DNA from: Streptomyces sp. P9-A4
Lineage (GTDB): Bacteria > Actinomycetota > Actinomycetes > Streptomycetales > Streptomycetaceae
DNA length: 64,000 bases
NCBI RefSeq assembly: GCF_036634195.1
Contig: NZ_JAZIFY010000001.1
Span: 5,280,501 to 5,344,500 of the forward strand
Direction of reading: 5' to 3'
Shown: piece after piece, positions 58,889 to 64,000 of the stretch
How the letters are laid out: each line of letters begins with the position of its first letter
How positions within the stretch are numbered: the first letter of the stretch is position 1
Notes under the pieces: model-generated
Databases searched by the model: none
What the model was told of the DNA's origin: nothing
Seen by the model: only the letters and a program-made list of their open reading frames with translations
Position numbers and translations under genes: made by a program

Positions 58889-58962
58889 ACCCCCATCATC
58901 CGGGAACGCCGGGCCAGCTAATCTGACCCCCGTCAGAGAAGCACCGAGAAGGGGTGAAAGCA

Positions 58963-59178
58963 GTGGCGGACATCGAGTCGGCACGCACGGCATTCAACAA
59001 GTTCGACGCCGACGGGGACGGTTTCATCACCGCCGCGGAGTACAAGAGCCTCATGGCGAAGCACGGCGACTTCAACGTCACCGAGTCGGTCGCCGAGGTG
59101 CTCATCAAGCAGCGCGACGACAACGGCGACGGCGTGCTCTCCTGGGACGAGTTCTGGGCGCACTACAGCAAGGCCTGA
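58963..59178 (+). CDS. Small EF-hand calcium-binding protein
   Basis: A 71-residue protein consisting of two EF-hands: DADGDGFITAAE (first loop) and DDNGDGVLSWDE (second loop), each with canonical Asp/Glu ligands and the central Gly. It resembles the small calmodulin-like Cab proteins of Streptomyces implicated in calcium buffering or signalling during aerial growth. The GTG at 58963, 8 bases after GAAGGGG, is preferred to the GTG at 58954 that lies inside that site. It is divergent from the GNAT gene. Confidence 0.93.
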   Translation: MADIESARTAFNKFDADGDGFITAAEYKSLMAKHGDFNVTESVAEVLIKQRDDNGDGVLSWDEFWAHYSKA

Positions 59179-59246
59179 GCCGCCGGCCCGGACGGGCGGG
59201 GCAACGCTGAGTTGCCGCCCGTCCGGGGCTCGGTGACGATCGTCCG

Positions 59247-60155
59247 GTGACCCTTCCCGGATCCTTCGGTACCCCGAGCCGTCTGACAGCGGTGGTCCTC
59301 GCCGCAGCGGCCGTCCTCGGCGTCGCCCTGCTGGGCGCCGGTCTCGCCCAGACGGGTACGGGCGAACTGCGGATACCCGCCGCGGGCACCACCACGGTGC
59401 TGCGGCTCCTCGTGCTCACCGGTCTGGCCGTGCACGTCGGCGAACTCGCCGGACGCCGGCTCGCCGGCGAAGGACCACGGCCCCGCGCCTGGTCCGCCCC
59501 CGCCGCCCTCCTCGCCGCGACCGCCTCGGCCGGACTCCTGCTGCTCTTCACCGTCGTCAGCGGACTGAGCACGCGCGTGGTGTACGGACTCCGCGAGGGC
59601 CGCCTCCTGCTCGTCGCCGCCAACGCCTTCGTGCTGGCCGCCCTCTGCGCCGCCTCCCGGCGCCCCGGGCTCGCCGTGCTCCCGCTCGCCCTCGCCGTCG
59701 GGGCCGAGGCGCTGCGCGCCCACCCCGAGACGAACCAGCCGCTCCTGGGGAGCGGCCTCACCGTCGTCCACCTCACCGCCGCCTCGCTGTGGACCGGCAC
59801 GCTCCTGTACGTGCTCCGCACCATGCGGCTCAGGGGCGGCGGGCGGGACGTGCTGCTCCGGTACGCCCGGATGGCCGCCTGGGCGTACGCGGCCCTCGCC
59901 GTCACCGGCACCCTGTCGACCCTGCGCAAGCTGCCGCTGGACGCCGTCCTGAGCACCGCCTACGGACGGCTGCTGCTGGTGAAGCTGGTGCTGTTCGGCG
60001 GGGTGAGTCTGCTGGCGCTGGCCGCCCGGGGACGGCTGATGTCCGGCGGGAACGCCCAGGCACCCGCGCGCGTGGAGGTGTCCGTCCTCGCGGGGATCGT
60101 CCTCGTCTCGGCGCTGCTCACGGTCGTCCCCGCCCCGCACGGCTTCGCGCCCTGA
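59247..60155 (+). CDS. CopD-family membrane protein
   Basis: A 302-residue integral membrane protein with about eight hydrophobic segments, matching the CopD/PcoD copper-import family. It has the helix LTVVHLTAASLWTGTLLYVL with the conserved His and Trp, the loop RYARMAAWAYAALAVTGTLS, and TAYGRLLLVKLVLFGGVSLL near the C-terminus. Fusion to a CopC domain, common in actinobacteria, is absent. The GTG at 59247 begins MTLPGSFGTPSRL. A periplasmic copper role is family knowledge; no CopC, chaperone or copper regulator is adjacent. Confidence 0.85.
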   Translation: MTLPGSFGTPSRLTAVVLAAAAVLGVALLGAGLAQTGTGELRIPAAGTTTVLRLLVLTGLAVHVGELAGRRLAGEGPRPRAWSAPAALLAATASAGLLLLFTVVSGLSTRVVYGLREGRLLLVAANAFVLAALCAASRRPGLAVLPLALAVGAEALRAHPETNQPLLGSGLTVVHLTAASLWTGTLLYVLRTMRLRGGGRDVLLRYARMAAWAYAALAVTGTLSTLRKLPLDAVLSTAYGRLLLVKLVLFGGVSLLALAARGRLMSGGNAQAPARVEVSVLAGIVLVSALLTVVPAPHGFAP

Positions 60156-60237: not shown

Positions 60238-60315
60238 TTGACAGCGGATGAGGTGCGCTTCATGATTCAAACGAAATCAAGTGAGTTGACGCACAGAAGC
60301 AACGGATTTCGTTGC
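60238..60315 (+). promoter_or_regulatory. Promoter and inverted repeats before hydrazine-type locus
   Basis: TTGACA (60238-60243), a 17-base spacer and CATGAT (60261-60266) form a plausible promoter. Just downstream, AACGAAATC (60270-60278) and its complement GATTTCGTT (60305-60313) make a 9-bp dyad, nested with GCAACG/CGTTGC (60299-60315). The region is AT-rich for this genome. A pathway regulator may bind here; the rest of the 216-base gap shows nothing else. Confidence 0.5.
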
Positions 60316-60371
60316 TACGTACGCCAGTTGCAGCCGAATCCGTGAGTCGTCGATGGCTGGAGTTATCTCGC

Positions 60372-60722
60372 ATGCTGATTCGTCCGATGGCCGACGCCGA
60401 CCTCGTCGAGGCGTACGGCATCCGCTACCAGCAGCTCTATCCCGGTGGCGGCGAGGACCTCGCGCCCTGGGGATTCGGCCGCGCGGTCGTCGAGCCCGGC
60501 GGTGTGACCGACCCGCACGCACATGACGAGAACGAGGTCTTCCTGATCCTGGAGGGCGCGGGCGAGATGACGATCGGCGAGGAACGCCGGCCCATAGGCC
60601 CGGACACGGCCGTGTTCATTCCGGCCGGGAACCCCCACTTCATCAGGAACACCGGCGACAGCGAGCGACTGACCTTCCTGTCGATCTACTGGCCCACGGC
60701 GCACGGGCGCATCGACCTCTGA
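60372..60722 (+). CDS. Cupin protein, candidate N-N bond-forming module
   Basis: A 116-residue single-domain cupin with both metal motifs intact. Motif 1 is GGVTDPHAHDENEVFLILEG (HxH and Glu) and motif 2 is GPDTAVFIPAGNPHFIRN (final His). The ATG at 60372 has GGAG 9-12 bases upstream. On its own it would be an ordinary cupin, but it sits 15 bases before a MetRS-like gene and upstream of a sarcosine-oxidase-like gene. In hydrazine synthetases such as Spb40 and Tri28 a zinc cupin is fused to a MetRS-like domain and rearranges an aminoacyl hydroxylamine ester into a hydrazine. Here the modules are separate polypeptides. Cupin identity is firm; role by context. Confidence 0.87.
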   Translation: MLIRPMADADLVEAYGIRYQQLYPGGGEDLAPWGFGRAVVEPGGVTDPHAHDENEVFLILEGAGEMTIGEERRPIGPDTAVFIPAGNPHFIRNTGDSERLTFLSIYWPTAHGRIDL

Positions 60723-60737
60723 GGAGAGCGGCACACC

Positions 60738-62402
60738 ATGGCCAAGTTCAGCATCGTCACCGCGGCTCCACCCACGCCCAACGGAGATCTCCACCTCGGG
60801 CATCTCGCGGGCCCCTACTCGGGGGCCGACATCTTCGCCCGCGCCTGCCGGCTGCGGGGCGAGCGGAGCGTGTACGCCACCGGCTCGGACGTGCACCAGA
60901 GCTATGTGCCGGCCAAGGCCCGCACCCTGGACCTCGAACCGCTCGACATGGCTCAGGGGTTCGCGGACGAGATCGCCGCGATCTTCTCCTCGGCCGACTT
61001 AGCCACCGACTCCTACGTACGCCCCCAGCACTCGCCGCTTCACCGTGAGACCGTCCGCGACTTCATCCGCGCGCTCCACGACGGAGGCCGCCTGGAGCGG
61101 CGCACCGAGGACTGCCTGTACTGCGAGCGCTGCCGGCGCTACCTCTTCGAAGCGCATGTCACCGGAGCGTGCCCCCGGTGTGCGGCGGCCAGCGACGGGA
61201 ACTCCTGCGAGAACTGCGCCTGGCCCAATGTGTGCACCGACCTGGTGGACCCGCGGTGCAACGCCTGCGGCGACACCCCGACGCTCCGTTCCTACGAACG
61301 GCTCGTCTTCCCGCTGAGCCGGTATGCCGAACGGCTCGCCGCGTTCCACGACAGGACCGTACTGAGCCCCCAGGTCGAAACCCTGTGCGCGACGCTGACG
61401 GAGCACGGCCTGCCGGACATCCCGATCAGCCACCCCACCGACTGGGGCATACCCGTGCCGGTGGAGGGCTTCGAGGACCAGCGCGTCTACGTCTGGGCCG
61501 AGATGGTGCCCGGCTACCTCGCCTCGTTCGCCGAAGCGCTGGGCAGTGCCGACGGCAGTGGCGCGGCCGCGGACTGGCGGCAGGTCTGGGACGACCCCGG
61601 GACCGAAGTGGTGCAGTTCTTCGGCTTCGACAACGGCTACTTCCACGCGGTGCTGTTCCCGGCCCTCCTCATGGCGTACGACGAGACGCTGCGGCTGCCG
61701 GCCGCGCTGCTGTCGAACGAGTTCTACGAGCTCGAAGCGGCCAAGTTCTCCACCAGCAGGCGCCACGCGATCTGGGCGTCCGACCTGCTGGCCCATGTTC
61801 CCTCGGACACCGTCCGGTTCGTCCTCGCGTACGACCGTCCCGAGGACCGGCGCACGAACTTCACCTGGGACCGCTTCCGCGCACTGGCGGACGGCGAACT
61901 CGTCGGCACCTGGCAGCCCTGGCTCGACGCCCTCTTCACCCGCATGGAGGCGACGGGCTCCGGACGCGTCCCGGACGCCGCGGGCGCCACCCGCTCCCAC
62001 CTTCGCTACCTCGCCGACCTGGACCGGCTCGCCGAGCGCGGCCACCGCGCGTACCGGGCCGAGGGCTTCTCGCCCCGGCTCGCGACCCGCGTCCTGTGCG
62101 AACTCGTGCGCGGCGCCGAGGGGTTCGCGGCGGCCCAGAGCCGTCTGTACGCCTCCCGGCCCGGGTCCGCCGAAGCCGCGGCGGCGCTCGCGGCCGAGGC
62201 CGCGACCGCCCATGTCCTCGCCCAGCTCGCCCAGCCCGTCATGCCGCAGTTCGCCGAGCGGCTGTGGCAGGCGCTCGGCTGCGCGGGAGAGCCGGTCCGC
62301 ACGGAAGCGGCACTCCTTCCCGCCGGGCAGGCGGTCAAGGGCGGCGGCACCTTCTTCACCCCGCTGGACGCGGACCTCGAGGTCAAGGTGATGGGCGCGT
62401 GA
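60738..62402 (+). CDS. MetRS-like amino-acid-activating enzyme (hydrazine synthetase type)
   Basis: A 554-residue class I aminoacyl-tRNA-synthetase paralogue. The HIGH box is PPTPNGDLHLGHLAGPYSGA (residues 11-30). The zinc-knuckle insert has paired cysteines (CLYCERC near residue 126, then CPRC, CENC, CNAC). The KMSKS loop is AAKFSTSRRHAIW, with Thr for the second Lys. The C-terminal helical domain lacks the Asn and PW of the MetRS anticodon-binding region. It therefore probably activates an amino acid for transfer to a small acceptor, as in Spb40/Tri28. GAGGAGAG precedes the ATG. Leu88 is encoded by TTA (60999-61001), suggesting bldA control. Housekeeping MetRS is unlikely. Confidence 0.87.
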   Translation: MAKFSIVTAAPPTPNGDLHLGHLAGPYSGADIFARACRLRGERSVYATGSDVHQSYVPAKARTLDLEPLDMAQGFADEIAAIFSSADLATDSYVRPQHSPLHRETVRDFIRALHDGGRLERRTEDCLYCERCRRYLFEAHVTGACPRCAAASDGNSCENCAWPNVCTDLVDPRCNACGDTPTLRSYERLVFPLSRYAERLAAFHDRTVLSPQVETLCATLTEHGLPDIPISHPTDWGIPVPVEGFEDQRVYVWAEMVPGYLASFAEALGSADGSGAAADWRQVWDDPGTEVVQFFGFDNGYFHAVLFPALLMAYDETLRLPAALLSNEFYELEAAKFSTSRRHAIWASDLLAHVPSDTVRFVLAYDRPEDRRTNFTWDRFRALADGELVGTWQPWLDALFTRMEATGSGRVPDAAGATRSHLRYLADLDRLAERGHRAYRAEGFSPRLATRVLCELVRGAEGFAAAQSRLYASRPGSAEAAAALAAEAATAHVLAQLAQPVMPQFAERLWQALGCAGEPVRTEAALLPAGQAVKGGGTFFTPLDADLEVKVMGA

Positions 62403-62442
62403 CCCGTCGGCACCCGCGGGCCTCGGCACCCGCCGCGCGCGG

Positions 62443-63543
62443 ATGACCCGTTCACAGAGCGCCCTCGTCGTCGGGGGCGGGGTCTTCGGGCTGTCGATCG
62501 CACGGGAACTCGCCCGCCGCGGCCGACGGGTGACCCTCGTCGATCGCCAGTCGCCCGGACACGCCGTCCCCGCCGGCCCGTCGACCGCGGAATCCCGCAT
62601 CCTGCGCTGTTCGTACGGAACGCGGCAGTGGTACTCCGCGATGGCCCACGCCTCCGCACAGCAATGGCGTGACCTCGAGAAGGAGGCCGGCCGGGAACTC
62701 CTGGTCCCCTGCGGTGTCATCGGCTTCGCGTCCCGCGCGCCCTCGGAACCGGCGGACGCCGACGGGGAGCTGGCCTCGCTCGCCGCCCTGAGCGAACTCG
62801 GCATCCCTGTCGAGAAGTTGACGCCGCAGTCCGTGGCGCGCCGCTTTCCGGGCGTGGCGGACGTGGACCTGGACTTCGCGGTGTACGAACCCGAGTCGGG
62901 CGTGCTCCGGGCCAGGGAGGCCGTGGGGGCCCTGGCCGAGTCGGCGCAGCGGTACGGGTGCCGGATGCTGCGGGGCGCCGCCCGTCCCGACGGTGCCGGG
63001 GTGCGGATCGACGACGCCGAGACGTACACCGCGGATGTGGTCGTCTGGACGGTCGGGGCCGCGCTGCCCGACCTCTTCCCCGGGCTGACCTCGGCCCGTG
63101 CGGCGCACCAGGTCAGCTACTACCTGGACTCCACGGCGATGCCGTGCGCCCCGGGAGGTCCGGCGTGGATCGATCGCCGCCGCGGCCTCTACGGGGTGGG
63201 GGCGCTGAGTCCCCGGGGGGTCAAGGTCGTCCCGGACGTGGAAACGCCCGTCGGCGCGCCCGCACCGGCCGCCCGCCCCGAACTGCCCGCCACGGCCCGG
63301 TCGTACCTGCGCGGGCGGTTCCCCGCCCTCGCCGCCGCGCCGGTGGCGACGGCCGAGACCTGTGCCTACGCGGCGATGGAGGACGAGGAATTCCTCGTGG
63401 GACGGCATCCGGCCCACGAGCACGTGTGGCTGGTCGGCGGGGACTCGGGCCATGGGTTCAAAAACGCTCCGACGTGGGGGAAGTACGTATGCGACGTGAT
63501 GGACGGGACGACAACGGTGCACTCCAGATGGCGGCTGCGTTAG
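62443..63543 (+). CDS. Sarcosine-oxidase-type FAD-dependent amine oxidase
   Basis: A 366-residue flavoprotein of the MSOX/DAO family. FAD motif ALVVGGGVFGLSIARELARR (residues 7-26), the family segment AGPSTAESRILRCSYGTRQW, and the C-terminal GDSGHGFKNAPTWG are present. Cys in AETCAYAAMEDEEF aligns with the cysteine that covalently holds FAD in monomeric sarcosine oxidase. Such enzymes oxidise secondary amines. In s56-p1 and triacsin pathways an FAD oxidase (Spb39/Tri27) cleaves the N6-(carboxymethylamino)lysine-type hydrazine to release hydrazinoacetic acid, and this gene is placed to do the equivalent. The ATG at 62443 lies 40 bases after the MetRS-like stop with a weak ribosome site; its 3' end overlaps the next gene by 55 bases. 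Confidence 0.88.
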   Translation: MTRSQSALVVGGGVFGLSIARELARRGRRVTLVDRQSPGHAVPAGPSTAESRILRCSYGTRQWYSAMAHASAQQWRDLEKEAGRELLVPCGVIGFASRAPSEPADADGELASLAALSELGIPVEKLTPQSVARRFPGVADVDLDFAVYEPESGVLRAREAVGALAESAQRYGCRMLRGAARPDGAGVRIDDAETYTADVVVWTVGAALPDLFPGLTSARAAHQVSYYLDSTAMPCAPGGPAWIDRRRGLYGVGALSPRGVKVVPDVETPVGAPAPAARPELPATARSYLRGRFPALAAAPVATAETCAYAAMEDEEFLVGRHPAHEHVWLVGGDSGHGFKNAPTWGKYVCDVMDGTTTVHSRWRLR

Positions 63544-64000
63544 GCGCGGCCCCGCCCGGCGGCGACGACCCGCTGCAGGCCGCGCTGGGGCGGCTCGTGC
63601 CCGGCGACCGGCGCCGGAGCTTCGGCGCGGACATCGACGCGGCGCACGAGGTGCTCCTGTCCACGGCCTCGCGGGAGCGGAAGGAAGCGGAGCTGCTGCG
63701 CTGGTTCGGGCGCTCGCAGCCCTGTGTCTTCGCCAAGGTCACGGCACGCGCGGCGGCGCATCCGGCACTCGACGTGTGCTGGATCGACGAAGCCGACCTG
63801 GAGCGCGGTGCCCACCACGTCCGGGAGCGGCTCCAGCGGGCCAGGACCGCATGGAAGCGGCGGGCGGCCGCCGGTCTCACCAGCAGTCTGCAGGTCATGT
63901 TCAACAGCGAGGTCCTCGCGTACGCCGAGCCGGGACCCGAACTGGTCGAGGTCCTCCTGATGCTGACCGGTCTCTACCTGCCGGAGTGGGCGCCCGTGGA
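63489..64000 (+). CDS. Unrecognised protein, 3' end cut by window edge; TTA codon
   Basis: At least 170 residues, open to the window end. The ATG at 63489 has GGGGGAAG 6 bases upstream and overlaps the FAD oxidase end by 55 bases; an ATG at 63528 is an alternative. Segments such as LLRWFGRSQPCVFAKVTARA, LDVCWIDEADLERGAHHVRE and GLTSSLQVMFNSEVLAYAEP are vaguely like YqcI/YcgG-type haem N-oxygenases (a PC-x-F strand, then an acidic charged stretch), but this is weak. An N-hydroxylase would complete a hydrazine pathway here. Codon 18 is TTA (63540-63542). Function not assigned. Confidence 0.75.
   Translation, partial: MRRDGRDDNGALQMAAALGAAPPGGDDPLQAALGRLVPGDRRRSFGADIDAAHEVLLSTASRERKEAELLRWFGRSQPCVFAKVTARAAAHPALDVCWIDEADLERGAHHVRERLQRARTAWKRRAAAGLTSSLQVMFNSEVLAYAEPGPELVEVLLMLTGLYLPEWAPV

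Follow-up and report, generated by a model that had tools for sequence, protein, structure and literature searches.

How does an operon predicted to join two nitrogens come by its hydroxylamine when no flavin N-hydroxylase stands beside it? The question is raised by the last genes of a 64,000-nucleotide stretch of Streptomyces sp. P9-A4 DNA (the window), part of a 6.84-Mb contig in a genome of 7.54 Mb. We put at roughly 70% the probability that this is a hydrazine-synthetase operon in which N-oxygenation has passed from a flavin N-hydroxylase (NMO) to the product of its fourth gene, here called g4.

A seven-gene operon running past the window

Open reading frames and Pfam matches give seven genes in a row. 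The first three encode a stand-alone cupin (60372-60722, plus strand; 116 aa from its ATG; Cupin_2, 4e-18), a MetRS-like amino-acid ligase (60738-62402, plus strand; 554 aa; PF09334, 4.5e-89) and a DAO/MTOX-type FAD oxidase (62443-63543, plus strand; 366 aa; DAO, 9e-43). These had been noted in the preliminary description, and they are as it had them, with the cupin and ligase genes separate and 15 bases apart. The operon does not stop at the window's edge, where that account ended. The gene for g4, a predicted thiolate-heme N-oxygenase of 367 aa on the plus strand, begins inside at 63528, overlapping the end of the FAD gene by 16 bases, and runs through 64000 to end at 64631 outside (L006:7528-8631). 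Three more genes follow to the right, for a DUF4178 protein (L006:8631-9188; E 6e-10), a SAM methyltransferase (L006:9181-10002) and a SIS protein (L006:10009-10998). Among the NCBIfam models that the methyltransferase matches are those for daptide methyltransferase (at 96 bits) and glycine/sarcosine N-methyltransferase (at 61 bits), neither score reaching its cut-off. After the SIS gene the next genes listed are on the opposite strand; in L006:11238-20000 a ParA/MinD-like NTPase is encoded on that strand, together with a gene that has no Pfam family, and farther right are genes that we take to resemble sdaA, glyA, gcvH and gcvT. Directly upstream (58954-60155) lie genes for an EF-hand protein and a CopD-like protein, and nothing indicates that they belong to the operon.

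The loci used for comparison are those of the best 80 among 555 MetRS-like relatives in named genomes (570 pattern matches, 555 of which encode a relative). The cupin satisfies the zinc-ligand pattern H/D-x-H-x3-E...H: its H49, H51, E55 and H89 correspond to H50/H52/E56/H90 of PyrN, which sections of PMC8664883 give as zinc-ligand residues alongside D63/H65/E69/H103 of RHS1. A cupin match was obtained in 75 of the 80 loci. H51, E55 and H89 do not vary among these 75, and at position 49 there are 44 H, 27 D and 4 other residues. A PDB search with the cupin matched RHS1 (5UQP) at 1.5e-4, ranked 12 of 58. We predict a zinc cupin that rearranges an O-acyl hydroxylamine ester to a hydrazine. In the MetRS-like protein, H19, H22, D51 and the lysine of KFSTS, K336, are identical in 80/80 relatives. 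It shares 28% identity with the genome's third MetRS homolog (3.59 Mb), presumably the housekeeping enzyme, and 45-51% with cupin-MetRS fusions found among 120 listed of 1712 database matches. Because of this difference it is, as far as sequence comparison tells, not a housekeeping MetRS; its distinctness is judged by pairwise identity and motifs, the MetRS tree containing no canonical MetRS. Together the pair is predicted to carry out ATP-dependent N-N bond formation.

Motifs and relatives thus support the preliminary assignment to hydrazine machinery of the Spb/Tri type, with Spb39, Spb40 and Tri28 known here by description only. The accompanying idea that an unfused cupin and MetRS mark a new branch does not hold, since stand-alone pairs are already in print: passages of PMC2922099 predicted stand-alone cupins beside a MetRS paralog in 2010, and passages of PMC8664883 describe such pairs in 2021, including the assayed Rhodococcus jostii cupin RHS1. 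A second MetRS-like protein is encoded in the same genome (L008:13050-14615; G000:C1:4238050-4239615). It is 39% identical to the first and about 50% identical to those of a group of loci, most of them with a cupin and an NMO; neither a cupin nor an NMO was found in the 40 kb around its gene (L008, L009). Its neighbors include asparagine-synthetase and PrpF-like genes by Pfam, and what we take to be PIG-L-like and SDR-like genes.

The FAD enzyme has as its best NCBIfam model N-methyl-L-tryptophan oxidase, at 180 bits against a cut-off of 257, and its gene is present in 15/15 of the nearest loci at 40-66% identity. Its C307, which we take to be the covalent-FAD cysteine position of the family, is Cys in 13 of these 15 loci, those whose alignment covers the position. 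By analogy with Spb39, Tri27 and Apy10, for which such a step is reported, its predicted role is cleavage of the hydrazine intermediate, a likeness drawn from description, the sequence result being the DAO match. The curated models that fit the enzyme best, even if below cut-off, are those of N-methyltryptophan and sarcosine-type oxidases, and this would agree with a locus with no N-N pathway, in which the cupin, the MetRS-like protein and the FAD enzyme are catabolic or peptide-ligating. We consider this very improbable, given the zinc-cupin ligands, the cupin fusions among the ligase's relatives and the NMO gene beside 64 of the 80 relatives.

The fourth gene as a candidate heme N-oxygenase

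A lysine or ornithine N-hydroxylase had been expected beyond the right edge. None was found in the window or within 32 kb to its right (L006, L007), and g4 stands there instead. Passages of PMC2922099 have an adjacent lysine flavin N-hydroxylase "without exception" at such loci; over the window and 32 kb downstream, this operon departs from the rule. Across the genome, PF13434 matched at full length twice (1.72 Mb and 2.57 Mb) and weakly and in part five times, in each case outside the window. Hence the genome is not devoid of N-hydroxylases, which the preliminary description would have held against its reading, and the two NMOs are unlinked to the operon. The 2.57-Mb gene sits between genes that we take to resemble desA and desD of desferrioxamine, and the 1.72-Mb gene adjoins a PLP decarboxylase gene. 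Of 61 genomes sampled from the genus, 53 have a gene at least 72% identical to the latter NMO that covers most of its length, and 3 others have it in pieces.

No Pfam family was matched by g4. The first guess, a match to the YqcI/YcgG Pfam model PF08892, was not borne out (0/13 g4-family members at E<=1). PDB sequence searches with g4 found nothing, and the initial structure prediction, built on 13 sequences (pLDDT 64.5), had no significant structural match. The model used in its place, built from 64 sequences, has a predicted AglA-type sandwich resembling YqcI/YcgG, the match being moderate. With untrimmed alignments, a first hhalign comparison scored 17.3, at a probability of 4.8%, far below the 128 reached by one of 30 shuffles; on repetition with trimmed alignments and the larger family, 0 of 100 shuffles reached the real score. 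C66, kept in 66/66 sequences, aligns with AglA Cys44 in the N-terminal PC heme-cysteine motif. From these features we infer heme binding and N-hydroxylation, and predict that g4 is a thiolate-heme N-oxygenase distantly related to YqcI/YcgG.

With no Pfam family and a moderate fold match, one might also suppose an ordinary hydrazine-synthetase locus with its hydroxylase elsewhere and g4 in an unrelated, non-catalytic or regulatory role. This seems improbable, as g4 resembles an enzyme fold and 16 residues are invariant in 64/64 family sequences, Cys, His, Asp and Arg among them (the set includes H196, D197, R199, H213, D294 and Y325).

The gene was found in 1 of 396 genomes of the phylum sample, the window's own, and in 2 of 295 in a further count, the window's own included; both protein searches scored only about 8,000 candidates sharing most words, so that the family may be larger. 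Among open-licence papers, we found neither a description of the g4 family nor a heme-type N-oxygenase in a cupin/MetRS operon.

Relatives of g4 also occur on E. coli plasmids, where a g4-family protein, 35-37% identical to a Burkholderia relative, is followed by an EamA/DMT exporter (L120:881-2801, L121:7944-9870, L122:7944-9870). The two plasmid sequences aligned keep all 16 family invariants. Matches were obtained to 163 plasmid records (132 Escherichia, 18 Salmonella, 6 Klebsiella, 5 uncultured, 2 Shigella), and a DNA match to the g4-exporter pair is present in 119 of 5,426 complete E. coli genomes; in 93 it covers 80% or more of the pair, always on plasmids. A 5.9-kb plasmid carries the pair as its sole annotated cargo beyond replication and mobilization genes, in a gene table that is incomplete. 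The pair is possibly a two-gene small-molecule system. Three g4-type hydrazine loci likewise have an EamA exporter, assigned by Pfam, nearby (L028:15069-16094, L035:11626-12552, L036:13237-14157).

Exchange of g4 and NMO among related loci

Among the 80 loci, g4 is found in 8 (L022, L023, L024, L028, L029, L030, L035, L036), NMO in the 64 already mentioned, both in none, and neither in 8 (L038, L042, L061, L062, L070, L078, L091, L098); of the last, L070, L078 and L091 span less than 8 kb, and L042 and L062 more than 21 kb. The 15 nearest loci divide into 8 with g4 and 7 with NMO, and in 13 of these the oxygenase gene is directly upstream of the cupin (NMO 7/7, g4 6/8), counts that are not independent trials, since the loci share descent. 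In L022 and L023, g4 follows the FAD gene, as in the window. Of the downstream genes, DUF4178 is in 7/8 g4 loci versus 2/7 NMO loci, methyltransferase in 5/8 versus 1/7 and SIS in 5/8 versus 0/7, where absences in L024 (4 kb) and L026 (cut on the left) carry little weight. The methyltransferase of the NMO locus L034 is 65% identical to the window's, closer than those of three g4 loci. The downstream genes are partly common to both kinds of locus. In two Bacillota genomes, SIS proteins with an adjoining DAO protein lie near cupin/MetRS genes (L090:7109-8023, L096:6890-8086), so that a SIS partner may recur among hydrazine loci.

The MetRS-like tree has 57 rows, of which 45 come from the 80 loci and 10 are database proteins; the remaining two are the window and the second MetRS-like protein of the genome. 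The rows are labelled as 19 g4-linked (10 of these labels assigned by inference), 33 NMO and 5 unlabelled. One clade of 26 rows (100/99), which includes the window's ligase, takes in every one of the g4-linked rows along with 7 NMO rows, the latter as a nested clade (100/99). Well-supported branches of the tree require at least two changes of oxygenase. A quick tree of 44 NMO rows places the 7 nested NMOs with L014, the genome's own NMO at 1.72 Mb (SH-aLRT 100), and away from the other hydrazine-locus NMOs sampled. The simplest reading is that NMO was replaced by g4, and g4 then by another NMO; g4 may instead have been gained twice.

This shared lineage, together with its full length, lends something to the idea that the unlinked 1.72-Mb flavin NMO beside the PLP decarboxylase supplies the hydroxylamine, with g4 a later tailoring oxygenase. 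That arrangement is nonetheless unlikely, because relatives of this NMO are as widespread across the genus as noted above while g4 is rare, and because g4 and a local NMO are mutually exclusive and mostly occupy the same slot. The preferred reading, that g4 took over the flavin enzyme's step, allows a bolder one, for which we would not claim even odds: g4 would found a new thiolate-heme family, the sister group of YqcI/YcgG, acting on aliphatic amines by N-hydroxylation; it would have displaced the flavin N-hydroxylase in one hydrazine-synthetase branch, before being displaced there by a siderophore-type NMO; and on E. coli plasmids its stand-alone form, paired with an exporter, would make a small N-oxygenated molecule.

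Proposed chemistry and comparison with known systems

Gene content, motifs, the fold similarity of g4 and its distribution complementary to NMO are the observations behind the following scheme, in which heme binding, N-hydroxylation, the order of steps, the substrates and the product are all proposed. The side-chain amine of a basic amino acid or a diamine would be hydroxylated by g4; the MetRS-like enzyme would adenylate a second amino acid and join it as an ester to the oxygen of the hydroxylamine; through the zinc cupin this ester would rearrange to give a hydrazine, from which the FAD oxidase would free a hydrazino product by cleaving one C-N bond; and the methyltransferase and SIS protein would tailor it. 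Our confidence in any given substrate is lower than that in the N-oxygenase role of g4. The nested NMO locus L025 has a diaminobutyrate transaminase above its NCBIfam cut-off and a diaminobutyrate decarboxylase match below cut-off, a gene pair that, judged by these models, points to 1,3-diaminopropane. In the g4 locus L035, a saccharopine-dehydrogenase-fold protein follows DUF4178, with no NCBIfam model decisive; homospermidine synthases have the same fold. Pyrazomycin PyrL is termed a putative saccharopine dehydrogenase in a section of PMC8664883, and the accepted partners named in part of a review (PMC11705231) include N3-OH-DAPN, N4-OH-putrescine, N4-hydroxy-DABA and N6-hydroxylysine. A basic amino acid or a diamine is the most likely substrate of g4, and arginine is less so. 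Were arginine used, g4 would act on its guanidine, and the N-N bond would join the guanidine nitrogen of an N-hydroxyguanidine to an amino acid. Guanidines are indeed substrates of characterized YqcI/YcgG enzymes, according to parts of PMC12866846 and PMC10849742, but g4 is far from PF08892 and that preference need not carry over; FAD and, once, methyltransferase genes are common to g4 and NMO loci; and the L034 NMO and the genome's two NMOs all best match, below cut-off, the same amine N-monooxygenase model. We regard the arginine route as unlikely, if less so than a supply of hydroxylamine from the unlinked NMO.

What is probably new here is that a split hydrazine-synthetase operon has, where the flavin enzyme would be, a probable heme N-oxygenase not yet described; the stand-alone cupin/MetRS pairs, and the proposal for chalkophomycin that a YqcI/YcgG enzyme replaces another N-oxygenase, were already known. 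In the parts of the literature drawn on, the first step of the cupin/MetRS hydrazine pathway is flavin chemistry and the neighboring N-hydroxylase is called invariable. If our reading is true, a heme enzyme in the flavin slot is a second entry to N-N natural products, and the YqcI/YcgG fold might extend to new substrates. As a family marker, g4 could reveal clusters overlooked when searching for flavin N-hydroxylases, and the E. coli plasmid relatives give the family's chemistry an interest beyond Streptomyces.

In its cupin zinc-ligand pattern and its MetRS-like ligase with KFSTS, the operon is like the known cupin/MetRS hydrazine synthetases (Spb40, Tri28, PyrN, the RHS1 pair and Apy9), and its DAO-type FAD oxidase parallels the Spb39/Tri27/Apy10 step. 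It differs in that the described synthetases use a flavin N-hydroxylase, whereas this operon has a putative heme protein of another family. Heme and hydrazine are also common to the KinJ/FzmP enzymes, in which parts of PMC12154649 suggest a His heme ligand, with nitrite as substrate and a ferredoxin partner. A KinJ-type identity for g4 was set aside on the nitrite substrate and the suggested His-ligated heme; the text of PMC12154649 makes no mention of MetRS, cupin or YqcI. The YqcI/YcgG heme N-oxygenases (AglA, ChmN, GntA, DcsA) resemble g4 in predicted fold and PC heme-cysteine motif, from which a shared N-oxygenation role would follow. Unlike them, g4 has no Pfam match, is longer at 367 aa than the AglA chain (274), has invariant residues of its own and adjoins a hydrazine synthetase. 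The likeness to chalkophomycin ChmN/ChmM lies in a YqcI/YcgG enzyme replacing one N-oxygenase of an N-N pathway, which is put forward as a proposal in the relevant part of PMC10849742. That case differs in turn, for there the ChmN-type enzyme takes the place of a diiron domain and supplies an SznF-like protein with hydroxyarginines.
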